This document shows, piece by piece, positions 17,231 to 44,368 of a stretch of 64,000 nucleotides of DNA (its first letter is position 1; each line of letters opens with the position of its first letter). The DNA comes from Betaproteobacteria bacterium TMED82 (GTDB taxonomy: Bacteria; Pseudomonadota; Gammaproteobacteria; Burkholderiales; Burkholderiaceae_A), in assembly GCA_002170395.1 (NCBI GenBank), contig NHEJ01000007.1:43955-107954 (forward strand), written 5' to 3'. Under the pieces are notes generated by a model. That model was not told the DNA's origin and searched no databases. It saw only the letters and a program-made list of their open reading frames with translations. The position numbers and the translations under genes were made by a program.

Positions 17231-18800
17231 TTGTGTTTAGTGCAGTTAAAGAGGTAGTTGGAACATCTTTCGAATAATGCAGTCCGCGGCTTTCTCTTCT
17301 TTTGAGTGCGCTTAGAACTATGATTTCGGCACAAAGAGTAAGATTTCTAAGTTCAAGGAGATCTCTGCTAATTCTGTAAAGAGAATAATAGCTATCTATC
17401 TCCCTTTTAATCTCACCAATTTTCTTAAGGGCTTTTTTAAGTCGTATGTCGGATCTTACAATACCAACATAGCTTGACATTATTGATCTTAATTCTTCCC
17501 AGTTATGGGAGATTTCCTTGGTCTGTCGAGTTTGATCAACTTTTATATTATTCCATTCAGTATTAATTTTTTCTTTGGAAGTAATTGACTGAGATATAAT
17601 TTGTTTCGCCGCTAATCGACCGATAACAACACATTCCAATAATGAGTTACTAGCTAGTCTGTTTGCACCATGTAGTCCTGTACATGCATTTTCACCAACA
17701 GCAAATAGATTTGAAATTTCTGTTCGCCCGTTTACATCAGTGATTATCCCGCCGCATGAATAGTGAGCAGCAGGGACAACTGGTATTCGCTGAGAACTTA
17801 TGTCTATTCCCAATTTTAAACACCTAGATTTTATTGTGGGGAAGTTTTCATCTATGACTTCCTGCTCAATCATCGTTGCGTTCAAGTAAACATTTTCAAT
17901 TTCATATTTTTTCATTTCTGCATCTATTGATCTTGCAACAATATCACGCGGTGCAAGTTCACCTTTTGCATCATACTTCCTCATAAACTTTTCTCCTGAC
18001 GGAAGTTCTAGAGTTGCACCAGCGCCCCTAAGTGCCTCTGAAATAAGAAAGCTTCTATCATCAGGGTGATAAAGACATGTAGGGTGAAATTGTATAAATT
18101 CCATATCTGAAACTCTACAACCAGCTCTCCATGCCAAGGCAATTCCGTCACCCGTTGCCGTATCCGGGTTCGACGTGTATCGATAAACTTTACCTACCCC
18201 TCCTGTAGCGAGCACAGTCGAAGAGGACTCCAGATGAAAAATTTCGTTTTTTATGATGTCCAAAAAGCAAACACCGACAACTGCAGTAGATTGACGGGCT
18301 TTTTTATTAGTAATTAAGTCAATTGCCATCCAGTTGGTCTGAATTTCTATGTTAGGATTTTGCCTAGCTTGATGCAGTAATACGTCCAAAATTGCTTTAC
18401 CAGTTGAATCAGCGACGTGGGCAATTCTTGCTCTACTATGTCCTCCTTCCCGAATAAGGTGTAGCTCGCTTTTTTTTTGTTTGTTCTGATTGAATACAAC
18501 ACCTTTGTTAAGTAACCAATCGATCGCACCATGACCTGATTCAGCGACCAATCTAGCTACACTGGGCTCTACAAGCCCCTTTCCCGCATCAATTGTATCT
18601 TTAATGTGAGTGGAGATGCTGATTTCATCACTCAAAACGCTTACAATTCCACCTTGAGCCCATGCAGTCGCGGACAAATATAAATCTTTCTTGGAGACAA
18701 TAAGTACTTTTTTTTCTTTTGCCAATTCTAGTGCTACAGTTAACCCTGCTAGCCCACACCCTATAACAATAATTGGGGAACAACTTTTTTTTTCTACCAT
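17199..18800 (-). CDS. nadB: L-aspartate oxidase
   Basis: VIGCGLAGLTVALELA..SATAWAQGGIVSVL..HLIREGGHSRARIAHVADSTGKAI..LATGGVGKVYRYTSNPDTATGDGIALAWRAG..FHPTCLYHP..PAAHYSCGGIITD..LHGANRLASNSLLECVV. Confidence 0.95.
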   Translation of the reverse strand: MVEKKSCSPIIVIGCGLAGLTVALELAKEKKVLIVSKKDLYLSATAWAQGGIVSVLSDEISISTHIKDTIDAGKGLVEPSVARLVAESGHGAIDWLLNKGVVFNQNKQKKSELHLIREGGHSRARIAHVADSTGKAILDVLLHQARQNPNIEIQTNWMAIDLITNKKARQSTAVVGVCFLDIIKNEIFHLESSSTVLATGGVGKVYRYTSNPDTATGDGIALAWRAGCRVSDMEFIQFHPTCLYHPDDRSFLISEALRGAGATLELPSGEKFMRKYDAKGELAPRDIVARSIDAEMKKYEIENVYLNATMIEQEVIDENFPTIKSRCLKLGIDISSQRIPVVPAAHYSCGGIITDVNGRTEISNLFAVGENACTGLHGANRLASNSLLECVVIGRLAAKQIISQSITSKEKINTEWNNIKVDQTRQTKEISHNWEELRSIMSSYVGIVRSDIRLKKALKKIGEIKREIDSYYSLYRISRDLLELRNLTLCAEIIVLSALKRRESRGLHYSKDVPTTSLTALNTIIAPYDVRDS

Positions 18801-20209
18801 GCTTGTTTACTAAAAAATATTTTTATAGAAGTTGTTAACAAAATTCGAATGTCAAACCATAACGACCAGTTTTCAATGTAAAAAAGATCATGTTGCAGCC
18901 TTCTGTTGATATCATCGATTGATTTTACCTCTCCCCGCAGATCGTTAACCTGAGCCCAACCTGTAATTCCTGGCTTTACTTTATATCTGAGGACATAACC
19001 TTCTATTTTTTTTTTAAACTCATCCTCTTGTTTCAAAGCATGCGGCCTGGGACCAACTAAACTCATTCTACCTTGCAAAACATTAATAATTTGAGGGAGT
19101 TCGTCTAAAGATGTTTTACGCAGCCATTTACCAACTTTTGTGAATCTAACATCATTTGGTATTGCCTGCGTTATCTGATCACCCGCCTCTTTATGAACCT
19201 TCATTGTCCTAAACTTATAAATTGTGAAAATTTTACCGTCCCAGCCAATTCTCTTTTGTAAAAAAATTATCGGCTGACCACTAGTCAAGAGCAATAGAAA
19301 TGAAATGATAACTAGTAGAGGGCTAGAGATGATCAAGAAAATACTTCCTAGAATTTTGTCTTCAAGCATTTTTATTATTTTATTTAAGCCGACCATCTTG
19401 TTTACACTGATATCAATCATTGGAAACCCCAGAAATTCTGTCACTGAGTGATTAAGCAAGCTGAGTCCGAATAAGTCTGGAATAAGACGCACTGAAACAT
19501 TATTTGCACAAGATATTCTTAAAACTTCATGTATCCTTTGACCTGCGCTAAGTGGCAGGGCAACCCAAATTTCTTCTATCTCAGTTTTGGAAATTGATGC
19601 TAGCTTTTCTTTGCCGCCTATAACTTTAAGATTAGAAATGGTGTTACCGTGTAGCTGTCTGTTATCGTCAAGAAGGCTCATCACAATAAAACCGCTTTCA
19701 GGACTTTTCAGCAATTGATTAACTATGGATTTACCCAAGCGCCCTGCACCATAAATAATAATTTTTTTTTGATTCACCCCTTTTTTTCTAAGGTGACGAA
19801 CTGCTGTAAACACTATTACTCTGCAAGCAATAATTAATAAAAGACTTAATATTAACCAAATTAGTAGAGCTTCAATCGAAATGATTAAATCTAAGTCAAT
19901 CACTAGCCAAACTAAAATTGTGAATCCAGACGATATAGCAAATGCTATAAAAAGACGGCTAAACTGATCGGAATAGGGTCTCCCGCGCCAACTTCTGTAA
20001 ACTTGAGATTCTTTGAAAGTAATTAGGCAAATTAAAGACTTAATCAAGAGCAGAGCTAGAGCATTCTTAAGCTGCAATCCACTTGAAGAAAATAAGTAGA
20101 CTGTCACAAATAAACCCACAGTTATAGATGAAATGTCAATGATTCGACTGAAGACCTCAAAAAGTCCAGCGTATTCCTTCGTAATAAATCTATTTGGTTT
20201 CTTAATCAA
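18794..20209 (-). CDS. wcaJ: Undecaprenyl-phosphate hexose-1-phosphotransferase (WcaJ-like)
   Basis: C-terminal IFLQKRIGWDGKIFTIYKFRTMKVH..WLRKTSLDELPQIINVLQGRMSLVGPRPHALKQ..YKVKPGITGWAQVNDLRGE; N-terminal TMs and CoA-binding-like domain. Confidence 0.9.
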   Translation of the reverse strand: MIKKPNRFITKEYAGLFEVFSRIIDISSITVGLFVTVYLFSSSGLQLKNALALLLIKSLICLITFKESQVYRSWRGRPYSDQFSRLFIAFAISSGFTILVWLVIDLDLIISIEALLIWLILSLLLIIACRVIVFTAVRHLRKKGVNQKKIIIYGAGRLGKSIVNQLLKSPESGFIVMSLLDDNRQLHGNTISNLKVIGGKEKLASISKTEIEEIWVALPLSAGQRIHEVLRISCANNVSVRLIPDLFGLSLLNHSVTEFLGFPMIDISVNKMVGLNKIIKMLEDKILGSIFLIISSPLLVIISFLLLLTSGQPIIFLQKRIGWDGKIFTIYKFRTMKVHKEAGDQITQAIPNDVRFTKVGKWLRKTSLDELPQIINVLQGRMSLVGPRPHALKQEDEFKKKIEGYVLRYKVKPGITGWAQVNDLRGEVKSIDDINRRLQHDLFYIENWSLWFDIRILLTTSIKIFFSKQAW

Positions 20210-20210
20210 G

Positions 20211-21326
20211 TCAATTTAAGAGTTCAGCAACTTCTGCCAAAAACTTTTTATCAAAAAATTCTTGAGAAAATTGTAAAGCATTTTTTTTACAATCGATAGG
20301 GTTAAAATTCATTTTTGAGAACTTTTCAATTAGTTTTGCTAGTTCCTTTGGACACTCAGTGTTGAATAGTAATCCAGTTCCTGTTTTTTCCCTATCTATA
20401 TCTATCACCGTTTCGCTGGCTCCTCCTTCCCTAAAAGCTAACACGGGAATTCCACAGGCTTGAGATTCAACCACAGAGATTCCAAAATCCTCTTTGGAAG
20501 CTTGAATCAAACCCTTCGATCCAAGCATTAATTTTATTTTCTCATCATCACTAAGGTAACCAAGGAAGGCTACATTCTTTGGCGCTATCCGTTTTAAATA
20601 GTCTAGTTCGGGACCGCTACCCGCTATGAATAATTTTTTACTTGGTAAATGAGTAAAGGCTCTTATTATTAAATCTACTTTCTTATAGGGCACCAATCTG
20701 CAGATTGATACGAATCCCCCATGTGCCTCGAAATCTTTTATTTTTGGAATGTATACAGGGGGATAAACTACTGAAGAATCCTCATGCCAACATTTTTTTA
20801 TTCTACGTTGAACAAACTTACTGTTCGCAAGAATCTTATTCGGACGTCTCGAGGCTTTTTTATCCCATTCTCTTAAATTGTGAATTTGTCTTTGTATTAC
20901 TTTACTTAAGACTGTGGGAAAGCTATGGTTTTTCAGATACTCCATCTCCATATCCCAAGCCCATCTCATGGGAGTATGAACATATGCAAGGTGTTTACAT
21001 GAGATTTTTTTTTTTACAATACCATGAGAAAAAGCCCACGAGCTACTTATAATTAAATCATAGGTTTTTAGCTCTAGCTGCTCTATTGCTCTTGGCATTA
21101 GCCAAGCAAATAACCTGTAGTTATCAGTTACCGTAGGAAGATATTGTACGAAACTTGTTTTTATAGGGTGTTTTGTGGGTACAGATATCACATTTGAATT
21201 TCTTTGTTTTAAAAGTGTGTAAACCTGAGCATTTGGAAAATGATAAAGAATTCTTTCTAAAACTCGTTCAGCACCGGCTCTCGTGACAAGCCAGTCATGG
21301 ACGATAGCCACTCGCATTTTAGGCAC
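20211..21326 (-). CDS. Glycosyltransferase family 4
   Basis: VAIVHDWLVTRAGAERVLERILYHFP..CRLVPYKKVDLIIRAF..SKEDFGISVVESQACGIPVLAFREGGASETV. Confidence 0.9.
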   Translation of the reverse strand: MPKMRVAIVHDWLVTRAGAERVLERILYHFPNAQVYTLLKQRNSNVISVPTKHPIKTSFVQYLPTVTDNYRLFAWLMPRAIEQLELKTYDLIISSSWAFSHGIVKKKISCKHLAYVHTPMRWAWDMEMEYLKNHSFPTVLSKVIQRQIHNLREWDKKASRRPNKILANSKFVQRRIKKCWHEDSSVVYPPVYIPKIKDFEAHGGFVSICRLVPYKKVDLIIRAFTHLPSKKLFIAGSGPELDYLKRIAPKNVAFLGYLSDDEKIKLMLGSKGLIQASKEDFGISVVESQACGIPVLAFREGGASETVIDIDREKTGTGLLFNTECPKELAKLIEKFSKMNFNPIDCKKNALQFSQEFFDKKFLAEVAELLN

Positions 21327-22200
21327 CTGAGCTCAATAAATGATCATAATCATTACTAAGCATCAACGATAGCGTTTGCTCTAAGGGAATAAAGTTTACA
21401 AACTTCCCATGTTTTTTTAAGAACGAATAAAGCTTGCTGGGATCACCTTTTAAAACTTTTCTCTCTTTTTGTCTGATGAATTTACTTTCCATCTCTAGCG
21501 AAGGAAAATGACCAGTCATATTTTCGATCTTTTTTATAATTACTTCGAGATTATATGTTTTTCCAGTACAAATATTAAAAATCTCAGTTGGAGTATCAAT
21601 TTCAATTAAAGATCTTAAAACGTAAGTTACCCATCGTATATCATTGAACTCCCGCTCAACATTTAGATTTCCCAGTTTTAAAGTTGGTAACTTTTTCTTA
21701 AATGAATTAATCAATTTTGGGATAAAGAAAGAATTATCTTGGCCAATGCCTGTACAGTTAAATAAACGAAGAATCACCACGTCAGAGGTCATGGCGGAGG
21801 TTTTGCATATATACTCCATTGCTAATTTACTAGTTGCATAATGCCCCTCGGGCTGCAATTTATGATTTTCACTCACTTGAAGACTAGAATTGCTATAAAC
21901 ATGCCCGGTACTGGCGATAAAAATTTTTTTATTTTTAAAAAATTGTTCGATTCCTGATATTAAATTTTGACTTCCTATTACGTTGTTAAAATAAAAATCT
22001 TCTGCTTTATGATTAAGTTGATGACTTAACCCCGCTAAATGAACAACTTGATCAAACTCACTTTCTCTCAGCTCTTGAGCGAGAGATTTCTGGTCTAAAA
22101 GATTTGATTTTAAGGGAATTGGACAATGCCCACTTTTCGCCAATTCATTGGAGAGATGTTTGCCGATAAATCCATTGGATCCCGTAATTAAAATTTTCAT
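21319..22200 (-). CDS. rmd: NAD-dependent epimerase/dehydratase; candidate GDP-6-deoxy-4-keto-D-mannose reductase
   Basis: [81 protein letters not shown]; adjacent to gmd. Confidence 0.72.
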
Positions 22201-23228
22201 CTTTGAAGTGTTAACCTCTCAATATCTCTTTCGACCATCATCTTTGCAAGGTCTTCAAGATTTGTTTTGGGTTCCCAATTAAGATCGGCTCTTGCAAGAC
22301 TTGCATCCCCAAGTAATGAATCTACCTCAGCAGGCCTGTAGAACTGACTGCTTACCTCTAAAACAATTTCTCCAGTTCTTTTGTTGATAGCATATTCTTT
22401 ATCTTTTGCTCCAAAAAATTCAATATCCATTCCTGCTGCTCTAAAAGCCAATTTAGCAAAATTTCTGATGGTTTCGTTTTTACCAGTAGCAAGAACATAT
22501 GACTTAGGCTCTTTGGCTTGAAGCATTTTCCACATTCCTACAACGTAATCTTTTGCATAGCCCCAGTCCCTTTTAGCATCTAAATTACCCAGTATTAATT
22601 TCTTTTGCATATTTAATTTGATACCAGAAACTGCCTTAGAGATTTTACGAGTTACGAATTCTTCTCCCCTCAAAGGACTTTCGTGATTAAAAAGAATTCC
22701 GGCAGCACCAAATATATTATAACTTTCGCGGTAGTTTACAGTAATCCAGTGAGCATATAACTTGGATACTGCGTAGGGACTTCTGGGATAAAAAGGAGTT
22801 TTTTCATTTTGCATATCTGCTTGAACCTTGCCATACATTTCAGAGGTGCTAGCTTGATAAAATTTAATACTTGGATTTACTAGTCTTATAGCCTCTAAAA
22901 TATTTAGTGTTCCTATCGCATTTATTTGACTTGTGGCAGATGGATTTGAAAAGCTTGAAGTGACAAAGCTTTGAGCAGCTAAGTTATAAATTTCAGTTGG
23001 TTCAAATTTATTTAGTAAAACGACCATACCATTTGAGTCTGTAACATCATTCTCTTCTAATGTTACGTTGGGGTGAGCTAGTAATTTTAGTTCTTTTAAT
23101 CGCCATAAATTCAATGTACTAGATCTTCTGTAACACCCGATGACTTCATAATTCTTTTCTAGTAAATATTGGCAGAGGTAAGCTCCATCTTGCCCAGTAA
23201 TTCCAGTAATAATTGCTTTTTTTCCCAA
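22197..23228 (-). CDS. gmd: GDP-mannose 4,6-dehydratase
   Basis: [104 protein letters not shown]. Confidence 0.96.
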
Positions 23229-23263
23229 AATTAATTTCCTATTAAAAAAATAGTCTGTAGCTA

Positions 23264-24070
23264 TTGATTATAAAAATATTTACTATCTTATTAATGAATG
23301 TGTCTTTCTTGCTTAATATGACCCGCCAAGATTTTAGAGATCGGTACGCCGGTTCTGTGGTTGGTGTAGCATGGGCAGTAATAAATCCTTTGATTATGAT
23401 ACTGTTATATCTTATTATCTTCTCGGAAATAATGGGTGCAAAATTACCAGGAAATTCATCTTTAGATAGTTTTAGCACTTATTTAATTTCAGGGTTACTA
23501 CCTTGGTTTGCTTTCTCCAACACATTTTTAAGAACCACTACGGTCTTTCAAGATAAAAAACACATAGTATCAAAGGTAAGGGTGAACTTGTATATTTTTC
23601 CAGCTTACATCGTTTTGTCAGAGTCATTAACTTTTGCCGTTTCAATTTCATTGTTTATTTTACTCTACAACACATTTTTAAATGGTAGCTTGTCGTTAAT
23701 TTTGTTAGTTTTTATTCTGTTAGTTTTTTTTTTACAGCAGATATTTGCGCTAGCAATTGGCCTCATGTTCTCAATCTTTAATGTATTTTTCAGAGATATA
23801 AAAGAGTTTGTGACAATTTTTTTAAATATATGGTTTTGGTTTACTCCCATCATTTGGGTGCCATCAATTGCGCCTATTTGGTTGCAAAAAATACAAGAAG
23901 TTTTTAATCCAGCATATTGGTTCATATCAAGCTATCAAAATATTTTTGTTTACGGAAAAACTCCAGAACTGAGTCACTTAATGCTACTTATCCTATGCTT
24001 CCTTTTTTTTGCAACCATAAGTCTGTTATTGTTAAATTTTTTTGAAAGAGAAGTTCGAGATGGTATTTGA
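23264..24070 (+). CDS. wzm: O-polysaccharide ABC transporter permease (Wzm-like)
   Basis: [61 protein letters not shown]; followed by Wzt-like ATPase. Confidence 0.9.
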
Positions 24071-24102
24071 TCTGAAAAACACCATGGATATTAGAATAAG
24101 TT

Positions 24103-25296
24103 GTGCTTAAAGTAAAAAAACTCTACAAAAGTTTTCGACTCTACAAAAAACCATCAGACCGAATTTTTGAGGTGCTTTTTAATTCAAAGAGGCATACAAA
24201 TTGTGAGGTTCTGAAAAATATTAATTTTAGATTAGGACCTGGTGAGTCTTTAGGGGTAATCGGGCCAAATGGGGCTGGGAAATCCACACTACTAAAGCTT
24301 ATCGTCGGAATTCTTTTGCCTGACTCTGGGCAAATAGATACCAGTGGAAGGATTGCTGGGTTGGTTGAGCTGGGTACTGGCTTTAATCCTGAACTAACTG
24401 GTTTAGAAAACGTAAAAAATAATGCTCTTTTATTAGGGATGTCGGCGAACGAGTTGAACTCAAAATTAGACAATATCCTAGATTTTGCTGAACTTGGACC
24501 GTATATTCAGAATCCTTTAAAAACATATTCTTCAGGGATGGTTATGAGATTAGCTTTTGCCACTGCAGTCCATTCAGATCCTGAATGCTTTGTTGTTGAT
24601 GAAGCTTTATCGGTTGGGGACTCTTATTTTCAGCAAAAATGTATTCGCAAGATAATGGATTTCAGGTCAAAGGGAGGTTCTTTACTCTTTGTATCCCATG
24701 ATCTAAATGCAGTGAAGTTACTGTGCTCAAATGTACTAGTTTTAGATGAAGGGGAGGTTGTAGCTTATGAAAACCCTGAGGGAGCAGTAAATTTTTACAA
24801 CAAATTAATTTCAAGATATAAACCTTCAGTCCAAGATTCAGAACGAAATGTATCGTGTGGATATGGCACTTTACGTGCGATAATTACGGAAGTGTCCATG
24901 AACGGGCTTACGGATAACAATCTAAAATTTACCTCTGGACAACATGTTACTTTAAAAATTAAAATTAGATGTAACGACGACATCAGAGATTTTGTTATTG
25001 GTTTCATGATTCGGGATCGATTTGGGCAAGATATTTTTGGAACCAATACCTACCTGAGCGAAATTGACCTGTCTCCCAAAAAGGGAGCGGCGCTCGACGT
25101 CGATTGGAATTTTGATTTAAATATTGGGGTTGGCGGCTACTCTTTGTCTGTAGCACTGCATAGAGGCCCGGATCACACTGTTGAATGTTTACATTGGCAG
25201 GATGCGGCAATGATGTTTGAAATTACAGGGTTCTCTGGTAATGCTTTCGCTGGTTTGTGTCGATTGGAGCCAACATTTAATGTTCAGATTAGTTAG
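24103..25296 (+). CDS. wzt: O-polysaccharide ABC transporter ATPase with C-terminal carbohydrate-binding-like domain (Wzt-like)
   Basis: GPNGAGKSTLLKLI, YSSGMVMRLAFATAVHSDPECFVVDEALSVGDSYFQQKC; ~150-aa C-terminal beta-rich extension; GTG start. Confidence 0.92.
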   Translation: MLKVKKLYKSFRLYKKPSDRIFEVLFNSKRHTNCEVLKNINFRLGPGESLGVIGPNGAGKSTLLKLIVGILLPDSGQIDTSGRIAGLVELGTGFNPELTGLENVKNNALLLGMSANELNSKLDNILDFAELGPYIQNPLKTYSSGMVMRLAFATAVHSDPECFVVDEALSVGDSYFQQKCIRKIMDFRSKGGSLLFVSHDLNAVKLLCSNVLVLDEGEVVAYENPEGAVNFYNKLISRYKPSVQDSERNVSCGYGTLRAIITEVSMNGLTDNNLKFTSGQHVTLKIKIRCNDDIRDFVIGFMIRDRFGQDIFGTNTYLSEIDLSPKKGAALDVDWNFDLNIGVGGYSLSVALHRGPDHTVECLHWQDAAMMFEITGFSGNAFAGLCRLEPTFNVQIS

Positions 25297-25317
25297 TCTT
25301 AGCACTAAAATATTAAG

Positions 25318-26583
25318 ATGGAAGAATTTTTCTACAAAAGGTTTGAAGAGGGTCATCGAGGGCTCCCCGAAGAGATAAAAAAAAGGCTTGGAGTTTATAA
25401 ACCGGTTCTGTCTTTGATAAAGGAAAATTTTGGTGAAGTGAGGTTTGTGGACCTGGGCTGTGGTAGAGGCGAGTTTGTGGAAATTGCTGCAAGTCTTGGC
25501 ATTGATGGAATTGGAGTCGATTGCAATTCTGCAATGATGGATGGAAAGAAAACTGTTGGAGTGACTTTTGTTCAAGCGAATATTCAGAATTGGTTAAAAA
25601 GTCAGAATGATCAACAGTTTCATATAGTTTCTGCAATTCATGTTTTAGAGCATCTTTCTTTTGAAGATACAATTGATGTTGTTAAGGAAATCGAAAGGGT
25701 GTTGGTTCCTGGTGGGCTGGTTATTATCGAAACTCCAAATCCGGAAAATATAATTGTTGCGGGATGCAATTTTTACACCGACCCTACTCATGAAAAACCC
25801 ATCCCTCCGTCCCTGCTCTCTTACCTTTTTTCAGATGGCGATTTCAAGTGGGTGTCCGTTTGGAGGCTTAATGGTCCGCTTTTAGAAAAAGAAAAGATTA
25901 CTCTTTTAGATGTTTTAGGCGGAGTTAGTCCTGACTATTCCCTTTTAGCTCTCAAAAAAAGTTCTAACGGTAGTGGTAGCTTGGACTATAAGTTAAAAGC
26001 TTTGATTGGGAAAAGTCCTGGATATGATTTGAATCAGCTGGGGCTTTTTTTTGAGACTCGCTTTGCCAATGAATTTTCTAAATTGAAATTTACCACTTAT
26101 CAGAGCGTGAGTGCAGCAAATGAACTTTTAGATACAGTAAGCGGTGATTTTAAGAAAATTTCGGGAGATTTTAATAGACGTATTGAGCTTCTATCGAACA
26201 ACCTCGATAAAACCATTATGCAATTATCTGAAACAAATGACAGGTTGTATCGCGTAGAAGAATTGAATACGAAAGCGCAGGAGGAATTACGCCTGGTTTT
26301 GCATAGTCGTTCTTGGAAAATAACGAAACCATTGAGACTATTGAATCGTATTGGTCTTCGTATCACTCAGATAATAAAAAATTTTTTTTTTAATTTTAAA
26401 ACTTTAAGTTTGGAAGAATTTATTAGCTTATATAAAATTAAAATTATCAAAATTTTCATATCATGGAAAATGATTTCGAAGAGCTCAGATATAGCTAGTT
26501 GGGGAAATGGTTCGACGGGAGTGAGTGCCTCACGATATTTAAAAATCGTCAAAAGACACTCAAAGGAAAAAAAGAATGATTAA
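25318..26583 (+). CDS. SAM-dependent methyltransferase with C-terminal coiled-coil (WbdD-like architecture)
   Basis: VRFVDLGCGRGEFVEIAASLGIDGIGVDCN..VSAIHVLEHLSF..GGLVIIETPNPEN; then heptad-rich region and HSRSWKITKPLRLLNRIG tail. Confidence 0.82.
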   Translation: MEEFFYKRFEEGHRGLPEEIKKRLGVYKPVLSLIKENFGEVRFVDLGCGRGEFVEIAASLGIDGIGVDCNSAMMDGKKTVGVTFVQANIQNWLKSQNDQQFHIVSAIHVLEHLSFEDTIDVVKEIERVLVPGGLVIIETPNPENIIVAGCNFYTDPTHEKPIPPSLLSYLFSDGDFKWVSVWRLNGPLLEKEKITLLDVLGGVSPDYSLLALKKSSNGSGSLDYKLKALIGKSPGYDLNQLGLFFETRFANEFSKLKFTTYQSVSAANELLDTVSGDFKKISGDFNRRIELLSNNLDKTIMQLSETNDRLYRVEELNTKAQEELRLVLHSRSWKITKPLRLLNRIGLRITQIIKNFFFNFKTLSLEEFISLYKIKIIKIFISWKMISKSSDIASWGNGSTGVSASRYLKIVKRHSKEKKND

Positions 26584-26586
26584 AGC

Positions 26587-29500
26587 GTGAAAGTTCTCAT
26601 TGATTTGCAAGGCGCTCAAGCGTCTAATGCAAAAAGAGGAATTGGTAGGTACTCCCTAGCTTTGGCAGAATCAATTTTTGCCTTAGAGTTAGATTGGCTT
26701 GAAGTTCATATTTTACTAAACTTTTCCCTGCGTGAGACCGCCGCTGATTTAAGAAATCATTTTCATTCTAAATGCCCTCAGGACCATATCCACGGATTTT
26801 TCCTCCCAGATAAAGACTCATACTCCGCATCTTTCTATGCCCAAGCTTCTTTAATCAGAAATTTTGTAATTGATTCAGTCAGCCCAGATGTAGTTCTACT
26901 TACTAGCTTTTTTGAAGCTCCGGAGAGTGGTGTGGTGATTGACTTACAAACAAACTCGAAACATCTTAATGCGATCGTTTTATATGATCTCATTCCGCTT
27001 CTCCATCAAGATATTTATCTCACTAATTCGAAAGAGAAGGCATGGTATTTACACAAGGTAAAAAAAATAAAAGAAGCTGACTTAATTATGGCAATTTCAA
27101 AGTACACGGAGTCTTGTACAAAACGAGAGCTTCTCATAAGTGCAGACAGACTCGCCTTCATCGGAGGTGGGGTTGATCAAAAGTTTTTCTCTCGCGGGTA
27201 TGCAGGACCCTCAGTTGCTAGAAAAAACAGGAAAAAAAATGCTGATACTTTTATGTTGCAGATCAAAAAGAACTTTTTATTTTGCGTCTCAGGGATAGAT
27301 CCAAGAAAAAACTTAGAATTTCTAATTGAAGGGTTTTCTAAATTGGAAGAAAGTATTCGGGCTGATTTACAACTCGTTATTACGTGTAAGGTTGATAAAA
27401 GTACGACAATAATATTAGACAAGCTGCTGGATAAATTTTCTCTAAGTCATAGCGACGTTATTTTCACAGGCTATGTTGACGAACTTCAGCTGAGACAGTT
27501 GTATATCGACTGTTACTTATTTGTATTTCCCTCATGGGAAGAAGGATTGGGATTGCCAGTATTGGAAGCCATGTCATGTGGAGCCCCATGTATTTTTTCC
27601 AATGTGGCCAGTTTAAAGGAGTTTGAAGCGAGTGAATTAAACACATTCGATCCGCTTGATATCTCTGACTTAGTAAAAAAAATTTCCGACGTCATCGAAT
27701 ACCCCTCAAAGTATCTGGCATTAGTAAACTTGAGTTCAACTATTGCCAAAAGATACACTTGGAACGCTGTCGCTGAAAGAGCAATATCATCACTAAAGGA
27801 AAAAACTCTAAACAGAAAAGTTGATTTCCAGAAAAGAGACGGGGAGAAAAATTTATCCTTAGCTTATTTGTCACCTTTACCTCCAGATAAAAGCGGTATA
27901 GCAGACTACAGTTTTCTGTTGATCAAGTATTTAACAAAATTTTACGAAATCACTGTGATCTTGCCTAGAAACAGCAAAGAAAAATCAAGCTTTAGTGATT
28001 CGAATTTACATTTTCTTAGTGAAGAAAAATTTAAAGTTCGATTTGACGACTTCGATAGAGTTCTTTATCACTTTGGAAATTCAAAATTTCATATTAATTA
28101 TTTGAGTCTTATCCAAAATTATCCTGGGGTTGCAGTTTTACACGATTTTTCTCTAGACGGTGTGGTCAGTTTGTTACCAGAGAGGGAAAAGTGGTTATGG
28201 GTTAGCCACGGGATATCAGCAAATTACCTAAAGCAAAACTCTACAGAAAAAAAAATTGATGTTATTTTTCCTCAAAATCTGCCAATAATAGATTCCTCGC
28301 TTGGCGTCATTCTGCATTCGAATCACGCTTTGAATATGATGCAAAAGTGGTATGGAGACGAAGGCACATTCAAATGTGAAGTTGTACCCTTTTTGAAGGA
28401 GATCCCACAAAAACTAGAAAAAAAGCTTGCATTGAAGAAGTTAAATATTGGTGATGAGTTTATTGTTGCCGCCTTTGGTTATCTTGGGGTTTCAAAAATG
28501 AATCTTGAACTCATTGAAGCCTGGTCCGAGTCGCAGTTAGCAAAAAAATCAATCCTGGTTTTCGTGGGAGAGTTAGTTGATAGTGATTTAACAAAGAGTT
28601 TGACGACTTTGATTAATACGCTGCCAGAGCCCAATAGAGTTTTGATTACCAACTGGGTGGATGATCAGGTTTACAAAGCTTGGTTTTCGGTTGCCGAAAT
28701 CGCAGTCCAGTTAAGAAAAAACTCAAGAGGGGAAACGTCTGCAGCTCTTTTAGACTGTTTAGCCAACAAGCTGCCTACTATAACTAATAATCATGGAGAC
28801 ACTTTAAATTTAACTTCTAATGAAGTTTATCTTTTGCCTGAGAATTTTTCTGTTAAGGCTCTTGGTAGAGCATTGGAACACATGTTTGAAAATGAAAAGT
28901 TTAGAGCAGAGCTCGCAAAAAATGGTTTGAAACACGTTTCTGAGAATAATAAGCCTGCAGTATGTTCAGCTACTTATCATTCAAAAATAGAAAAATTTTA
29001 CAGAAATGAAAACTTGAAGCCATTTCGGTCTATTGAAAAACTAAAAAAGAAAAATTTGCTCCCCGTTACTAGCGTTGGGCAACAAGGTTTCGTAAACGCA
29101 CTAGTTAAGTCCAATTCTGACTCAGTTAGACGCCCGTCAATATTTATCGATATTTCAGAATTAACACAGAGGGATCTTCGCACCGGAATACAGAGAGTGG
29201 TGAGAAATATTTTAAGAAATCTTGTAATTAACTTTGTAACTGATCGCACTTTTAGGATAGAGCCTGTCTTTATAAACCCTTCAATGGAAAAATATGAATT
29301 TGCAGGAGAATTTATCTCTAATTTTCTCGAGTTAAATGAAAGGCTGGAAAATAAGCAGATAGAGCCAAAAAGGGGGGATATTTTTTTAGGTTTAGATTTA
29401 GCGCCTATTTTGATTCCAAAAAAAAAGGAAATTTTAGATGAGTTAGTTTTGCAAGGAGTAAACATTCAATTTGTTGTCTACGATATTATCCCTTTGGTCA

Positions 29501-30288
29501 ATCCTGAATTCTTTCCTCGCGGTGCTCATGAGCAATTTAAATTGTGGTTTCGAACAGTATCAAATTACCAAAAGTTAATTTGTATTAGCAAATCTACCGA
29601 GGCGGAAGTTAGGCATTGGCTAAAGACTTTTTTTCCAGAAAGGCTCGAACGATTAAAAATTCGGAATTTTAAGTTAGGAAATTCTTTATTGTCTGATGAT
29701 TTAACTCATGGATATCCGAGGAGTGCGGAGACAATTCTCAAAATTGCAAAGGAGAAACGGTTATTCATAATGGTTGGAACAGTTGAGCCCAGGAAGGGCC
29801 ACCAGCAAGTTCTTGATGCGTTTAATCTCATGTGGGAGAAAGGTGAAGATCCCGCATTATTGATTATTGGAAAAAAAGGTTGGAATGTTGATGAACTCGT
29901 TGAGCAAATTGAATCGTGCAAATTCTTTCGAAAGCATCTCCTATGGTTGAAAGATTGTTCAGATGAATTTTTGTTGAGGCTTTACGCTGAGGCTACTGGG
30001 CTAATAGCCGCTTCCTACGCTGAAGGATACGGACTCCCTGTAGTTGAATCTCAAAATTTTGGACTTTCTGTGTTTGCTAGAGATATACCTGTTTTTAGAG
30101 AAATTAATGAATCGTTTAAAAACATTCATCTATTTTCTGCTTCTTCGGCCCAGCGGCTACAGCAGTCATTTATTAAATGGAGGAATGGCTTAGAAATCTC
30201 AAAATCTGAAAAAACACGTAGTATTGAGCCAGATTGTTGGGAGAATGCAACAAAAGAGCTTCAGAAAATCATTTTTGATAACTCATAA
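26587..30288 (+). CDS. Multidomain glycosyltransferase (three GT4-like modules)
   Basis: 1233 aa; modules begin at MKVLIDLQGAQASNAKRGIGRYS, NLSLAYLSPLPPDKSGIADYS, IFIDISELTQRDLRTGIQRVV; two EEGLGLPVLEAMS / AEGYGLPVVESQN signatures; GTG start. Confidence 0.88.
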   Translation: MKVLIDLQGAQASNAKRGIGRYSLALAESIFALELDWLEVHILLNFSLRETAADLRNHFHSKCPQDHIHGFFLPDKDSYSASFYAQASLIRNFVIDSVSPDVVLLTSFFEAPESGVVIDLQTNSKHLNAIVLYDLIPLLHQDIYLTNSKEKAWYLHKVKKIKEADLIMAISKYTESCTKRELLISADRLAFIGGGVDQKFFSRGYAGPSVARKNRKKNADTFMLQIKKNFLFCVSGIDPRKNLEFLIEGFSKLEESIRADLQLVITCKVDKSTTIILDKLLDKFSLSHSDVIFTGYVDELQLRQLYIDCYLFVFPSWEEGLGLPVLEAMSCGAPCIFSNVASLKEFEASELNTFDPLDISDLVKKISDVIEYPSKYLALVNLSSTIAKRYTWNAVAERAISSLKEKTLNRKVDFQKRDGEKNLSLAYLSPLPPDKSGIADYSFLLIKYLTKFYEITVILPRNSKEKSSFSDSNLHFLSEEKFKVRFDDFDRVLYHFGNSKFHINYLSLIQNYPGVAVLHDFSLDGVVSLLPEREKWLWVSHGISANYLKQNSTEKKIDVIFPQNLPIIDSSLGVILHSNHALNMMQKWYGDEGTFKCEVVPFLKEIPQKLEKKLALKKLNIGDEFIVAAFGYLGVSKMNLELIEAWSESQLAKKSILVFVGELVDSDLTKSLTTLINTLPEPNRVLITNWVDDQVYKAWFSVAEIAVQLRKNSRGETSAALLDCLANKLPTITNNHGDTLNLTSNEVYLLPENFSVKALGRALEHMFENEKFRAELAKNGLKHVSENNKPAVCSATYHSKIEKFYRNENLKPFRSIEKLKKKNLLPVTSVGQQGFVNALVKSNSDSVRRPSIFIDISELTQRDLRTGIQRVVRNILRNLVINFVTDRTFRIEPVFINPSMEKYEFAGEFISNFLELNERLENKQIEPKRGDIFLGLDLAPILIPKKKEILDELVLQGVNIQFVVYDIIPLVNPEFFPRGAHEQFKLWFRTVSNYQKLICISKSTEAEVRHWLKTFFPERLERLKIRNFKLGNSLLSDDLTHGYPRSAETILKIAKEKRLFIMVGTVEPRKGHQQVLDAFNLMWEKGEDPALLIIGKKGWNVDELVEQIESCKFFRKHLLWLKDCSDEFLLRLYAEATGLIAASYAEGYGLPVVESQNFGLSVFARDIPVFREINESFKNIHLFSASSAQRLQQSFIKWRNGLEISKSEKTRSIEPDCWENATKELQKIIFDNS

Positions 30289-30495: not shown

Positions 30496-30551
30496 GCTGA
30501 GTTGATGGAGTATACTTTTAGTATCTTCAATTGTTTCGATTATTATAAGTT

Positions 30552-30565
30552 GCAGGTTAACCTGC
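30552..30565. promoter_or_regulatory. Perfect 14-bp palindrome GCAGGTTAACCTGC in the 5' region of the giant repeat protein gene
   Basis: Seen directly, ends 26 bp before the ATG; operator or 5'-UTR hairpin possible. Confidence 0.5.
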
Positions 30566-30591
30566 GTTTTAGTTAAAAAAAGGGAAAAAAC

Positions 30592-36036: not shown

Positions 36037-36057
36037 AAAGTAGTTAAGCAACCTTAG

Positions 36058-36088
36058 AAAAAGGGGGGCAATATTTGCCCCCCTTTTT
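36058..36088 (+). terminator. Strong intrinsic terminator after the giant repeat protein gene
   Basis: AAAAAGGGGGGCAA-TAT-TTGCCCCCCTTTTT, perfect 14-bp stem, U-tract, 22 nt after the stop. Confidence 0.92.
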
Positions 36089-36090
36089 CA

Positions 36091-38469: not shown

Positions 38470-38471
38470 CC

Positions 38472-40190
38472 ATGATTCAAAAAGCCGAAGATAAAGCAAA
38501 AGATTCGTCAATTGTTGCTAAGCTGAGAAAGGAACATCAGCCATATTTCCGTAATGCCTTATTTCTATCAGTTTTTGTAGCAGCTTTACCTGTTGCACCC
38601 ATTGCCTTTATGCGTTTAACTTTCGGTCCAGTTTTATACAGCGATAGCGTGGCATATTTACTTTGGCTGCTACTAATACTAATTGCTGCACTTACTCTTG
38701 CTGCAGCCCTAGAATGGGTGCGGGATAGAATTATTATGGCTGGGTCAATTTCGTTTGTTTCAAAGTTGGAAAAAATAGTTTTCTCAACCGTATTTGAGGA
38801 TAGTTCCAGAGAATGGACAAAAGGCGCAACAATAATAAATGATCTTCGAACAATAAGAACATTTTTAGCAAGTCAGGTAGCAGGGGCAATATTGGATGCC
38901 CCTTTCGCAATATTTTGGCTATTGGTAATCTTTTTTATCCACCCATTCATGGGACTTTTGTCGATTTTTGGTGCTGTAATGGCTTTGATAGTTGGAGTAA
39001 TAGTAGAAAAGAAAGTGGAACCAGAGATGGAGAAGGCTGGTGAGCACCAATCCACCTCAAGATCAGAATTGACCTCGTATTTTCAAAATCTCAATGCCTC
39101 CCTAGCTATGGGAACTTTGCCCAATCTTTACGATAGGTGGAATAAATCTCAGAGTAGTTTTCTTCTATCCCAGGCTACAGCTTCCGCCCAACAGTCTTTT
39201 GGTGGTGCGCTGACTAGAGTGATCATGCTCGTTCAAGGGTCAATGCTACTTGGATTAGGAACCCTATTAATGCTTTTAGAAATAATGCCAATTGGTATGG
39301 CAGGTAACTTGATAATTGCAAAATTTATTGGGGCCCTCGCCATGAGACCAATGATGACTGCTGTGATGTCCTGGAAAAATATTGTTGCTGCAAGACAAGC
39401 ATATGAGAATGTCGATATTTTCCTGCAAGAAAATCCAGCTGTAAAAAAGCAAATGAAGTTACCCAAACCTAAGGGAGTAATACAAATTACGAATGCCTCT
39501 GTATATGCTGACGATTCTGATAAGAAAATTCTCGATCAGATAAGCCTTCAAGCTAATCCTGGATCTGTAACCATCGTTCTTGGTGAGTCTGGAGCTGGAA
39601 AAACAACTCTCGCTAAACTTCTGGTTGGTTTTAGGGAGCCTAGTGCTGGATCGGTGCGACTAGACGGTGTGTCGGTGTTTAATTGGGATAAAGCTGAACT
39701 TGGACCACATTTAGGATACTTACCCCAAAATATTGAATTGTTTGGCGGCACAATGGTAGAAAACATTTGCCGATTTGAAAAACCAGACCAAGAAAAACTA
39801 AAAACCGCCTGCAAGAGAGCTGGACTTAACTATATTTATGAAGATTATTTAAATAATACCGAGCACTCGATAGATCCAGATTCTATGACGGTTTCCGGAG
39901 GCATGAGACAAAAATTAGGTATTGCTAGAGCATTCTATGGTGATCCTAAATTATTAGTTTTGGATGAGCCAACAAGTAGTCTTGACAGCGAATCAGAAGA
40001 TAACTTCATAGCAGCAATAATGGAATTTCAAAAAACTAATGCAACTATTTTTATAATGACACACAATAAAAAGATTCTAAAAGCGGCTGATCATATACTT
40101 GTTTTATTTAAGGGACGACAAAAAATATTTGATACCAAGACGAACATCGCAAAGAAAATGCGGATGTCTCAGTTGGAAGAAACGAATTAG
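38472..40190 (+). CDS. Type I secretion ABC transporter/permease ATPase, PrtD-like (first copy)
   Basis: TM region, GESGAGKTTLAKLL, VSGGMRQKLGIARAFYGDPKLLVLDEPTSSLD, IFIMTHNKK. Confidence 0.9.
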   Translation: MIQKAEDKAKDSSIVAKLRKEHQPYFRNALFLSVFVAALPVAPIAFMRLTFGPVLYSDSVAYLLWLLLILIAALTLAAALEWVRDRIIMAGSISFVSKLEKIVFSTVFEDSSREWTKGATIINDLRTIRTFLASQVAGAILDAPFAIFWLLVIFFIHPFMGLLSIFGAVMALIVGVIVEKKVEPEMEKAGEHQSTSRSELTSYFQNLNASLAMGTLPNLYDRWNKSQSSFLLSQATASAQQSFGGALTRVIMLVQGSMLLGLGTLLMLLEIMPIGMAGNLIIAKFIGALAMRPMMTAVMSWKNIVAARQAYENVDIFLQENPAVKKQMKLPKPKGVIQITNASVYADDSDKKILDQISLQANPGSVTIVLGESGAGKTTLAKLLVGFREPSAGSVRLDGVSVFNWDKAELGPHLGYLPQNIELFGGTMVENICRFEKPDQEKLKTACKRAGLNYIYEDYLNNTEHSIDPDSMTVSGGMRQKLGIARAFYGDPKLLVLDEPTSSLDSESEDNFIAAIMEFQKTNATIFIMTHNKKILKAADHILVLFKGRQKIFDTKTNIAKKMRMSQLEETN

Positions 40191-40216
40191 TACGTTGAAC
40201 AAAATATAGTTAAAAA

Positions 40217-41953
40217 ATGGATACAATTTCCTTAAATACCGTCCGTGGTTCACCTGTCTACAAGACCTTAATAAATTATAAAGTAGATCTATTTTGGATA
40301 TTCATAGCCAGCGCCATCATTAACATCCTAATGTTGACCCCAATGGTGTACATGTTGCAAATTTTTGATAGAGTATTCATAAGCCAGAATGTAGCAACGC
40401 TAATTTCCATATCAATGGTAATCATTTATTTGTATGTTGTAACCTCTGTATCAGAGTATATCCGATCCCAATTTATTATTAGACTTGGCTTAAAAATTGA
40501 TAGGAAACTAAACAAAAGATTGTTTTTTGCTGCCTTTAAGAATAAGTTAGATTCAAATATTGCCGATCCCCTTTCATACTTAGATGATTTGTTACTCATA
40601 AGACAGTGGATGACAGGCCCAGCCGTATTCGCAATTTTTGATTGTCCATGGGTACCGCTTTATGTTTTGGTGATGTATATTCTCCATCCTTACCTTGGGT
40701 TACTTAGTGTGATACTCATAATTCTTTTGGTTATTCTGGGTTGGGTTACTGCAAAAACAATGGGCATGTCAGCTGATATAATGATGGAGGAAGAGAAAGA
40801 ATCTAACAAGTTTCTTTACAATAAACTTAGAAATTCAGAGATTATAAATGTCTTTGGTTTGGCTGGAAAATTTAGAGATCCATGGTTAAAAACAAAATCC
40901 TTATTTTATCTGAACTTTGTAGACCGAGAGAAAAAAGCCGGAAAATTTTATCATTTCGCAAAACAGTTCAGATTGTTTACTGCCTCCTTAGCACTAGCTC
41001 TGGGTGCTGTTTTAGTGATGTACAATGAGCTTACACTTGCTGCCATGATAGCTGCCGCTTTGTTAATGCAAAGAACTGTTGCACCAATTGATAATCTGAC
41101 AATGGTTTGGTCGAACTGGCAATCAGTTAACCGTGCCTTTCAGAGAATTAATGAATTGCTGACTACTTACGATATCCAAAACGATTATATCAATTATCAT
41201 AGAAATGAAGCTGATGTAAATGAGTTGTCGGTATTGAGCGTCGAAAATCTAAAAGTCGAGTCGGATGAAAAAACTATCTTGAATGATATTAATTTAAAAG
41301 TATTCAGTAAAGAGGTAGTAGTCATAGTCGGACCCACTGGTTCTGGAAAAACAACTCTCTCAAAGGTTCTTGCTGGAATTTGGAATAAATACGATGGTAA
41401 AGTCACTTACGATCAGAGGGACATTAGAGATTTTGGAAACGACGATTTTAAATCTAATTTGGGTTACCTTCCTCAGTCTGTAATGTTGTTTGCAGGTACG
41501 GTGTCCGAAAATATTTGCAGCATGGGAAAGCCTGATGCTGAGAGAGTGATAAAAGTTTGTAAGTTGATAGGCATCCATGACTTTATTCTTAGGCTTCCTC
41601 AAGGCTATGACACGAAATTAGCTCCAGGTTCGGCCAGTTTTTCTGGAGGAGAAAGACAACGTTTGGGTTTGGCTCGAGCAATTTACCATAATCCCAAGGT
41701 TTTAATTCTTGATGAACCAAATTCAAGTTTAGACCAATATGGTGAGGCAAACCTAGCTAATGTTCTTCGGGTATATAGGAGCGAAAACCGAATTGTAATA
41801 GTAATAAGTCATAGAAAATCAATTTTTACTGTTGCAGATAGGGTGATCGAAATGAAGGACGGAGAGGTCCAGCATATCAGTCCAATTACTGAATATTTGG
41901 AAACAGTAGCATCCAAGACAAAAACTCCAAGATCGCAGACCGATGAAACATAA
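40217..41953 (+). CDS. Type I secretion ABC transporter/permease ATPase, PrtD-like (second copy)
   Basis: TM region, GPTGSGKTTLSKVLAG, FSGGERQRLGLARAIYHNPKVLILDEPNSSLD, IVIVISHRKS. Confidence 0.92.
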   Translation: MDTISLNTVRGSPVYKTLINYKVDLFWIFIASAIINILMLTPMVYMLQIFDRVFISQNVATLISISMVIIYLYVVTSVSEYIRSQFIIRLGLKIDRKLNKRLFFAAFKNKLDSNIADPLSYLDDLLLIRQWMTGPAVFAIFDCPWVPLYVLVMYILHPYLGLLSVILIILLVILGWVTAKTMGMSADIMMEEEKESNKFLYNKLRNSEIINVFGLAGKFRDPWLKTKSLFYLNFVDREKKAGKFYHFAKQFRLFTASLALALGAVLVMYNELTLAAMIAAALLMQRTVAPIDNLTMVWSNWQSVNRAFQRINELLTTYDIQNDYINYHRNEADVNELSVLSVENLKVESDEKTILNDINLKVFSKEVVVIVGPTGSGKTTLSKVLAGIWNKYDGKVTYDQRDIRDFGNDDFKSNLGYLPQSVMLFAGTVSENICSMGKPDAERVIKVCKLIGIHDFILRLPQGYDTKLAPGSASFSGGERQRLGLARAIYHNPKVLILDEPNSSLDQYGEANLANVLRVYRSENRIVIVISHRKSIFTVADRVIEMKDGEVQHISPITEYLETVASKTKTPRSQTDET

Positions 41954-43049
41954 AGAAACAGACTTGAGTGAGGAGGATATATTAGAACAATTTGAGGAGT
42001 TAAGTGACACCTCACAATATCGACGATATGCTTTATGGTTTTTGGTATTCTTTTTTGGGGGGACTCTACTCTGGGCGGCGTTAGTACCATTGGAGGAGGG
42101 TGTTCCAACTATAGGGTCGGTTGTAGTGGAGACTAAGAGAAAAGCTATACAACATCAAAGTGGCGGTGTGATAAAAGAAATTTACGTAAAAGAGGGTGAT
42201 TTTGTTGAGAAAGATCAAAAACTTTTGAAACTAAGTGATAGTACTGCGAAGAATGAGGTTGAGATTGAAAAAAATAATATTCAAAGTCTAAATGAAAGTA
42301 TAAATTCTCAGTTTACTTTATTAAAAAAAATTGACGAAGCTCGATCAGGTAAGTCTCTACAAATTAGTCTACTGAATGAAGAATTATTTGGAATTAGGAA
42401 TTTGGTAAAAGATGGATATGCACCAAAAGTAAGGCAACTAGCCCTCGAAAGAGAGCTTGCGGAGTTGGAAAGCAATAACCGTGAATTAAAAAATACAAAG
42501 CTTCAGACTGAGCAAAAAATTTCAGAACAAAAATATCAATTGGAGGCTGCAAAGAAAAGACTTTTGATTGTCAAAAGTCGACTTGATGGAAAAGTTATTA
42601 AAGCTAGTGTTTCAGGACAGATTGTCGGGTTACAAAAACAAGCAGTTGGATCCGTAATAAGTCCTGCAGAAAAAATTATGGATCTGGTTCCTAGGGACGA
42701 GAAACTACTCGTAGAGACTGAAGTAATGCCTAACTTAATCGATAGAGTTGAAGTTGGGGATATAGTGGATATAAGATTTACAAGTTTTTCTCTCACTCCA
42801 TTCCTGGTTGTTCCAGGGAAAATATCGTCTATTTCTACGGATATTTTAAATAAACCTCGACAAAAAGTGTCCACGTATTATTTAGCTAGAGTCGTACTCA
42901 CAGAGGAGGCTAAAACGATTCTTGGAAAGAGAAAAATTAGACCAGGGATGCAAGTAGAAATAGTTATTAAAACAGGAACTAGGACGCTTCTCGCATATAT
43001 GCTTCATCCACTGACTAGACGAATTGCACATTCTATGAAGGAGGAGTAG
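41943..43049 (+). CDS. HlyD-family periplasmic adaptor (T1SS membrane fusion protein)
   Basis: Single N-terminal TM, AIQHQSGGVIKEIYVKEGDFVEKDQKLLKL, coiled-coil, IKASVSGQIVGLQ, RPGMQVEIVIKTGTRT. Confidence 0.93.
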   Translation: MKHKETDLSEEDILEQFEELSDTSQYRRYALWFLVFFFGGTLLWAALVPLEEGVPTIGSVVVETKRKAIQHQSGGVIKEIYVKEGDFVEKDQKLLKLSDSTAKNEVEIEKNNIQSLNESINSQFTLLKKIDEARSGKSLQISLLNEELFGIRNLVKDGYAPKVRQLALERELAELESNNRELKNTKLQTEQKISEQKYQLEAAKKRLLIVKSRLDGKVIKASVSGQIVGLQKQAVGSVISPAEKIMDLVPRDEKLLVETEVMPNLIDRVEVGDIVDIRFTSFSLTPFLVVPGKISSISTDILNKPRQKVSTYYLARVVLTEEAKTILGKRKIRPGMQVEIVIKTGTRTLLAYMLHPLTRRIAHSMKEE

Positions 43050-44368
43050 TGTCGGTACATATGAAATTTATTTTTGCAAGTAAATTAATTATTTGCTCTT
43101 GCTGTTTTGCACAAGGGGATTTGAAGGAATATGTGGAAGCAGCAAGAAATAATAATTCAGAAATTAGAAAGGCTAGGGCAGAATTTAATGCTTTTGTAGA
43201 GCAAGAAAATATAGTCTTTGCGAATCTCTTACCATCTATCAGTGCAAGGGTTTCGAGATCAAAAGTTGAGCAAGAAAGATCTGACTCGACACGACCAAAA
43301 ATCAAACAAAATTACATTACAGAGAGTGATTCACTCTCATTGAGCCAACCGTTATATCGACCAAGATTATTAAAAGATTTAGAAAATATAAGATTGCTGG
43401 TGGATTCCGAGAAACTTATCCTTGAGCAAAAGGAAGAATTGCTTGTGTTAAAAGTTGCTAATCAATATTTTGATATCCTGGATAAACAAAATAAAGTAGA
43501 TTTAATAAAAAAAAGAATCGGGTTACTTGAGGAACAATTAGAGGCATCAAAAAAAACTTTTTTAGCAGGTACCGGAACAATAACTGAGAGGGCTGAAGTA
43601 AAATCAGCCCTTGATCAGGCAGGAGCTGAACTTATTAAGAACACGCAGATTCTGAAACTTGCATTCAGTAATTTATCTCTAATTAGTGGCTTAGATAAAG
43701 TAAGCACAAAAGAGCTGCAGTATGAAGAGAAAGAATTTGAAAAGTTCAAAGTAAAGAATTTGAAAAAATGGGAGGAAGAGGCTCTTCAGAGAAATTTTGA
43801 TACGCTTAGTTTTCAGAAACGAATTGAAGCTGCTGAAGCCGCTTTGTCTGCTGAGCGTTATAATCGTTATCCGACTATCGATATGTCCTTACAAGTTGCG
43901 AGAGGTTCAAGTGAGAGCACTTTTTTTGTAGACTCAGAGACAACGACAAAGTCTGTCGGTATAACCTTGTCAATGCCTCTTTATCAAGGGGGTTCTTTGT
44001 CATCTCGCATTCGAAGATCAGCTGAGACACTGAATGCAGAAAAGGAAGGCTTAAACTTTCAAAGGGAAGAGATTCGTAGGAGAGTTCAAAATAGTTTTTT
44101 TGGAGTAGTTGAAAACTTTTCATTAAATGATGCTTTGGAAACTGCATTAGAATCTGCAACAATAGAACTTGAGGCAAATAAAAAAAGTGTGACTGCTGGC
44201 TTACGAAGAAGGTTAGATGTACTCATTGCTCAGCAAAAAGCCATATCTATAGAGCAGCAGCTTTCTGCAGCACGAATTAAAATTGTATTAAACTGGTTGC
44301 AATTAAATATGCTTTCCGGCCGTCTTGACGAAGATAAGATAAGTAAGGTGTCGAAAATATTGCGGTGA
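43049..44368 (+). CDS. TolC-family outer membrane efflux protein
   Basis: Two repeated TolC-like halves, SLSLSQPLYRPRL, GITLSMPLYQGGSLSSRIRRS; likely true start ATG at 43061. Confidence 0.92.
   Translation: MSVHMKFIFASKLIICSCCFAQGDLKEYVEAARNNNSEIRKARAEFNAFVEQENIVFANLLPSISARVSRSKVEQERSDSTRPKIKQNYITESDSLSLSQPLYRPRLLKDLENIRLLVDSEKLILEQKEELLVLKVANQYFDILDKQNKVDLIKKRIGLLEEQLEASKKTFLAGTGTITERAEVKSALDQAGAELIKNTQILKLAFSNLSLISGLDKVSTKELQYEEKEFEKFKVKNLKKWEEEALQRNFDTLSFQKRIEAAEAALSAERYNRYPTIDMSLQVARGSSESTFFVDSETTTKSVGITLSMPLYQGGSLSSRIRRSAETLNAEKEGLNFQREEIRRRVQNSFFGVVENFSLNDALETALESATIELEANKKSVTAGLRRRLDVLIAQQKAISIEQQLSAARIKIVLNWLQLNMLSGRLDEDKISKVSKILR

Follow-up and report, generated by a model that had tools for sequence, protein, structure and literature searches.

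A possible RsaA-like, type I-secreted surface-layer protein with its own glycosyltransferase pair beside an O-polysaccharide locus in an uncultured marine betaproteobacterium

Between a set of O-polysaccharide (O-PS) genes and a type I secretion system (T1SS), Betaproteobacteria bacterium TMED82 carries a gene for a giant protein of 1814 residues, which raises the question of what this protein does and which of its neighbors work with it. We analyzed a 64,000-nucleotide stretch around this gene, referred to as the window (NHEJ01000007.1, positions 43,955 to 107,954; G000:C7:43955-107954 in our numbering). The source genome (G000) comprises 1.58 Mb in 7 contigs, is 85.6% complete, and was compared with other members of its genus (G001-G007), sister genera (G008, G010 and others), a genome of another family (G158) and others. 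A first-pass annotation had proposed that the surface protein, its exporter, a possible modifying enzyme and a glycan anchor are encoded as one unit, and the genes it named are present as open reading frames (ORFs) with the expected domains. Three proteins encoded on the forward strand are central: the giant protein P0001 (30592-36036), a tetratricopeptide repeat (TPR) protein with a glycosyltransferase-like domain, P0002 (36146-37885), and its 195-residue partner P0003 (37882-38469). We consider the chances about even that the block encodes an RsaA-like, type I-secreted surface-layer (S-layer) protein with a dedicated cytoplasmic glycosyltransferase, the product being a glycosylated lattice anchored on O-PS. 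The system is best read as RsaA-style and S-layer-like, with an added and probably dedicated glycosylation module.

P0001 is indeed the cysteine-free repeat protein rich in serine (13.9%), threonine (12.6%) and glycine (13.2%) that had been described, and it is also rich in alanine (13.0%). A search for DUF4214, which had been suggested, located this domain at the N-terminus (residues 4-57, E 6.8e-6, exceeding the Pfam gathering score), followed by a β-rich repeat body from about residue 175 and a signal-like C-terminal region. The autocorrelation of the body peaks at 88 residues (z 6.7) and at half that period, 44 residues. In an AlphaFold2 model of residues 1-520, which is of low confidence (pLDDT 52, five alignment rows), residues 1-126 are predicted to be helical and the region beyond ~195 to be β-rich. 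Orthologues occur in all seven other genus genomes, with identical neighbors where the contigs reach, and the five other full-length orthologues likewise contain no cysteine. Across six orthologues, conservation per 50-column block is 81-96% in the N-terminal 300 residues and 51-75% in the body. DUF4214 is also found at the C-terminus of a large secreted RTX protein of 2517 residues in the same genome (locus L063, G000:C2:105001-120000, 5402-12955, reverse strand) and in two ORFs of equal score, 78.2 bits (G000:C2:213843-214055 and G000:C3:33732-33944), which may reflect duplication of a segment close to a contig end.

The layout of P0001 resembles that of RsaA, the S-layer protein of Caulobacter crescentus, in which a helical N-terminal domain precedes a β domain, T1SS genes (RsaD, RsaE, RsaF) lie downstream of the substrate gene, O-PS genes are near and the lipopolysaccharide (LPS) O-antigen is the anchor. 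The parallel with RsaA, drawn before, now gains independent sequence support. The profile of P0001 residues 170-330 aligns with RsaA 201-324, the start of the β domain, at 22.8 bits (0 of 400 window-shuffles as good), and the C-terminal profile aligns with the RsaA C-terminus at 25.8 bits (3 of 400), although these counts are somewhat flattering because both regions were picked after the likeness had been seen by eye. A check of the RsaA segments against PDB entries showed identity over 1-324 and, at the C-terminus, an alignment from end to end. Within the first region, VSLTSGADT of P0001 pairs with LSLTTGTDT, where the lattice domain of RsaA begins. Residues 177-520 of the low-confidence model superimpose on RsaA 251-621 with Z 15.8 and a root-mean-square deviation of 5.3 Å over 310 residues. 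The two systems also differ: P0001 is far longer than RsaA (1814 versus 1026 residues), their N-terminal domains are dissimilar by sequence, the window T1SS has two ATPases instead of one, and P0002 and P0003 are encoded between substrate and exporter.

The O-PS genes had been described as running directly into the giant gene. This does not hold, since a gap of 303 bp separates them, and its last 90 bases are conserved in all eight genus members aligned. This leader (30500-30591, forward strand) contains TATACT at 30511-30516, a small hairpin at 30551-30566 and a Shine-Dalgarno-like AAGGGA, and would act as a promoter region. The small hairpin (TGCAG..CTGC), just upstream of the Shine-Dalgarno sequence, has inner bases that vary between members and is possibly regulatory or mRNA-stabilizing. 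Directly after the stop codon, and before the export operon, lies a strong terminator- or attenuator-like hairpin with a 5' A-run and a 3' U-run (36057-36089, forward strand), the region of which folds at -36.5 kcal/mol (z -3.4). A post-stop hairpin with a U-rich tail was present in all six genus members folded, even with differing sequences (region z -1.3 to -4.6). Because of the conserved leader and the terminator-like hairpin, the giant gene looks like its own transcription unit; these features suggest a separate, strongly expressed gene whose transcripts read through into the genes for modification and export. In each of the five members examined, the giant gene uses C-ending two-fold codons somewhat more often, a weak signal. 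Codon adaptation was discarded as a sign of high expression because the ribosomal-protein reference was uninformative, its mean equaling the genome mean.

Downstream of the hairpin is the enzyme pair. What had been called a possible modifying enzyme proved to be the most informative element, owing to its flagellin-linked second copy. P0002 combines TPR Pfam matches with a C-terminal domain with the motifs EQGxGD, GISWKGG and HFAGA. This architecture is like that of FlmG of Caulobacter, a TPR and GT-B protein that O-glycosylates flagellin in the cytoplasm and binds it through the TPR half (PMC7591256). The likeness drawn here is one of architecture (~580-596 residues, TPR N-terminal domain, glycosyltransferase-like C-terminal domain), and unlike FlmG, P0002 is encoded beside a T1SS substrate and accompanied by a partner with a predicted methyltransferase fold. 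The gene for this partner, P0003, was absent from the first-pass annotation and overlaps the P0002 gene by four bases. The P0003 model (pLDDT 79.8) found class I methyltransferases in Foldseek (best E 2e-4) and resembled O-methyltransferases (VIA, Z 12 over 166 residues), the rhamnosyl O-methyltransferase SpnH being one of the best matches, while the P0003 alignment contains no glycine-rich S-adenosylmethionine (SAM) loop. P0003 may serve as a non-catalytic partner, or it may be a methylase of an unusual kind; relatives found through its gene include the uncultured marine Betaproteobacteria AG-913-B20, AH-287-N17, MED-G174 and TMED41, among others.

The pair is duplicated in the host genome, and the second copy (on G000:C6) lies in the midst of three giant flagellin genes, whose products have 1893, 1145 and 1147 residues (locus L061, G000:C6:146001-166000, at 3312-8993, 12266-15703 and 15934-19377, all on the reverse strand). 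Flagellins above 1000 residues are known from marine gammaproteobacteria (PMC6248924). G001 and G007 share the flagellin-linked arrangement, as do G004 and G006 as far as the contigs extend, and the 1893-residue flagellin is conserved in G001, G004 and G007. In the same three genomes, a 185-residue protein adjoining the flagellin-linked TPR-glycosyltransferase (L061 9247-9804, reverse strand) is conserved. Elsewhere, the TPR-glycosyltransferase of G010 adjoins a flagellin, and in G158 the pair lies near a repeat protein whose C-terminus resembles that of flagellin. In a tree of the TPR-glycosyltransferases, in which supports are moderate, the genus copies that neighbor the giant gene cluster together (85/84), and the flagellin-linked genus copies cluster with G158 and the long-branch G008 sequence (83/84). 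Between the two groups of copies, the TPR halves are 33% and the glycosyltransferase halves 57% identical. A more diverged TPR half is expected if this half selects the acceptor, and the data fit a TPR half tuned to the neighboring acceptor. Since the other copy of the pair sits beside flagella genes, the analogy suggests that the coat protein is decorated with sugar inside the cell before export.

We also weighed whether the pair acts elsewhere, either on the O-PS or on flagellin as a second enzyme, and neighbors P0001 by chance. O-PS genes and flagellar-type genes (44691-51407) are indeed close by, and most of the relatives in a class-wide sample adjoin neither a flagellin nor a T1SS (of 40 loci, 7 are next to a flagellin and 1 is next to a T1SS). 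However, the pair lies on the same strand between substrate and exporter in an order that is fixed in all genus members, the flagellins already have a separate copy, and the TPR half has diverged more than the glycosyltransferase half. In addition, G008 repeats the order, with a repeat protein of 1057 residues (57% S/T/G/A/N) followed by the TPR-glycosyltransferase and a 211-residue ORF, while Wzt is 3 kb and a two-ATPase T1SS ~15-20 kb away, all within ~30 kb. We therefore regard another target as unlikely.

Our tentative proposal, to which we give slightly less than an even chance, is that a flagellin-glycosylating pair was duplicated and, as its TPR half diverged, redirected to a giant S-layer-type protein that is glycosylated in the cytoplasm before export in unfolded form by a two-ATPase T1SS. 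The giant gene would be transcribed from its own leader and end at its own terminator, and partial read-through past the hairpin would supply lower amounts of the modifying enzymes and the exporter. Before export, P0002 would bind unfolded P0001 in the cytoplasm through its TPR half, and the GT-B-like half of P0002, together with P0003, would O-glycosylate some of the serines and threonines, as FlmG does with flagellin. The C-terminal signal would then direct P0001 to an ABC exporter of the PrtD type, a heterodimer that works with HlyD and TolC. Once exported, the β-rich body would make the coat, and the helical N-terminal domain would anchor it on the ABC-exported O-PS made by the neighboring locus. 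If this is correct, FlmG-type glycosylation would reach beyond flagellin to include an S-layer-type protein secreted by the type I route, and in this small and streamlined marine genome the two largest types of surface protein would be glycosylated by two copies of a single pair, each copy lying next to its target. Acceptor choice by cytoplasmic O-glycosyltransferases, an open question, would also become testable by swapping TPR halves, and an S-layer would be indicated for uncultured marine Betaproteobacteria. A search for FlmG together with S-layer found no paper in the collection searched.

Several observations weigh against this proposal. The N-terminal domain of P0001 shows no sequence similarity to the LPS-binding N-terminal domain of RsaA (122 of 400 shuffles as good), a Foldseek search with the model of residues 1-520 returned nothing significant (E>0.3), and PDB profile searches with the N-terminal 520 residues and with the C-terminal region detected neither a significant relative nor RsaA, so that the sequence similarity to RsaA counts as weak. 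In the fold comparison, unrelated generic β-helices tie with RsaA; the predicted-fold evidence alone is therefore non-specific, and the resemblance to RsaA is short. RsaA carries several RTX calcium repeats. P0001 contains one RTX nonapeptide only, and we accordingly say that it may work like RsaA and do not place it in the RTX S-layer family. The C-terminal domain of P0002 is only weakly assigned to the Glyco_transf_9/heptosyltransferase group (a weak match in 7 of 18 family members; best PDB E 0.026). NeuB occurs in 4 of 8 genus members but was not found in the host genome, which is incomplete, so that a donor sugar derived from NeuB is unsupported for the host. In G008, only the TPR-glycosyltransferase and the transporters show detectable homology to window proteins, with none between its repeat protein and P0001 or between its 211-residue ORF and P0003, and this ORF was rejected as a P0003 homologue.

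Gene order bears on the same issue. From 14062 to ~49906-51407, the genes keep their order in G001, G002 and G003, as well as in those portions that G004-G007 cover, and the O-PS and giant-protein/T1SS modules, whose separation in relatives would have spoken against a link, are always neighbors within the genus. This synteny also spans unrelated flanking genes, and because these flanks are equally collinear it says little about whether the block forms one functional unit. On the contigs examined from the sister genera (G011 and G021; loci L106 and L111), O-PS genes occur with no neighboring repeat protein of the P0001 kind. Of the earlier one-unit claim, the genus-wide adjacency stands, whereas the flanking synteny, the separate leader and hairpin of the giant gene and the stand-alone O-PS genes weaken it. 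These O-PS genes without P0001, the presence of DUF4214 in other large secreted proteins such as the 2517-residue RTX protein, and the equal match of generic β-helices would also suit a giant T1SS adhesin or a loosely attached matrix or fiber protein without a lattice, beside an O-PS locus by coincidence. We find this somewhat unlikely, given the RsaA-like boundary and C-terminal segments, an N-terminus far more conserved than the body, and the occurrence of P0001 throughout the genus between a conserved leader and a conserved hairpin, which is the layout of a bulk structural protein.

Other known S-layers were compared with the RsaA-like arrangement. The RsaA-like S-layers of Methylotuvimicrobium/Methylomicrobium (PMC11784148, PMC13274458) likewise have a large S-layer protein gene beside a T1SS, while the parts of these reports that we drew on describe one permease/ATPase and do not mention a TPR-glycosyltransferase. 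NpdA of Delftia/Paracidovorax (PMC10765051) is also a betaproteobacterial S-layer protein, but npdA is found with a type II secretion cluster and the giant gene with a T1SS. An NpdA-type assignment was rejected, the annotated window neighbors being O-PS, T1SS and flagellar-type genes, with no type II linkage.

The T1SS is complete, as had been proposed, and follows P0003 on the forward strand. It consists of PrtD-type permease/ATPase 1 (38472-40190; TIGR01842 428 bits, cut-off 510), PrtD-type permease/ATPase 2 (40217-41953; TIGR01842 514.7 bits), a HlyD-type membrane fusion protein (41943-43049; TIGR01843 227 bits) and a TolC-type outer membrane protein (43049-44368; OEP 1.8e-48; TIGR01844 215.6 bits, cut-off 225.2). 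ATPase 1 and TolC thus score below their NCBIfam cut-offs, though their families are clear, and the other two exceed theirs. Both ATPases have intact Walker A/B, signature and H-loop motifs. Since MARTX systems and other families of the order also have two-ATPase T1SSs, the trait is unusual but not unique. As a marker for S-layers it was dropped, because elsewhere in the order it adjoins RTX or nucleotidase-like proteins, a further point against the S-layer interpretation. The MARTX four-component system (RtxB/RtxE/RtxD/TolC) similarly has two ABC ATPases in one T1SS and requires both RtxB and RtxE (PMC3034196), while the window ATPases are of the PrtD type and nothing toxin-like was found in P0001. 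The two ATPases share just 27% identity, as would suit separate exporters or a regulatory role for one of them. Their catalytic motifs are kept, they lie side by side, accompanied by a single HlyD and a single TolC, in genus members and in G008, G026 and G049, and MARTX export needs both of its ATPases, which makes this alternative to a heterodimer quite improbable.

Upstream of the giant gene, the region 18794-30288 is, by its gene content, an ABC-transporter-type O-PS locus, with Wzm, Wzt with a C-terminal domain, an initiating transferase and glycosyltransferases; domain profile matches bore out the module described earlier. The reverse strand encodes a WcaJ-type undecaprenyl-phosphate hexose-1-P transferase (18794-20209; TIGR03023 449.5 bits, cut-off 410.75; Bac_transf 8.8e-64), a GT4 glycosyltransferase (20211-21326; Glycos_transf_1 2e-24), an Rmd-like short-chain dehydrogenase/reductase (21319-22200), whose PDB relatives are the putative epimerase 4lw8 (4e-41), the GDP-6-deoxy-D-mannose reductase 6x3b (second-best, 7.2e-21) and 2pk3 (2.6e-14), and the GDP-mannose 4,6-dehydratase Gmd (22197-23228; GDP_Man_Dehyd 3.5e-130). 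The forward strand encodes a Wzm-type exporter permease (23264-24070; ABC2_membrane 1.8e-12), a Wzt-type exporter ATPase (24103-25296; ABC_tran 7.8e-21, Wzt_C 4.5e-30), a SAM methyltransferase (25318-26583; Methyltransf_23 1.3e-14) and a triple-domain GT4 glycosyltransferase of 1233 residues (26587-30288; three Glycos_transf_1 stretches, 7.7e-54). The methyltransferase had been labeled WbdD-like. Domain profile searches found its methyltransferase domain and no kinase domain at E<=0.01; the assignment as a WbdD chain terminator, which combines the two, was thus rejected, and the protein is a candidate chain-end methylase.

Beyond the T1SS, flagellar-type genes flank it at 44691-51407, encoding a FliK-like protein, a sigma-54 activator and a MotA-like proton channel, the last being ~94% identical between genus members. 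In another genome (G766, locus L151, 3022-9900), a TPR-glycosyltransferase lies close to a 1033-residue ORF beginning MNHVYRLVWNRALGA, a start that we take to be of the type found in two-partner or autotransporter exoproteins.

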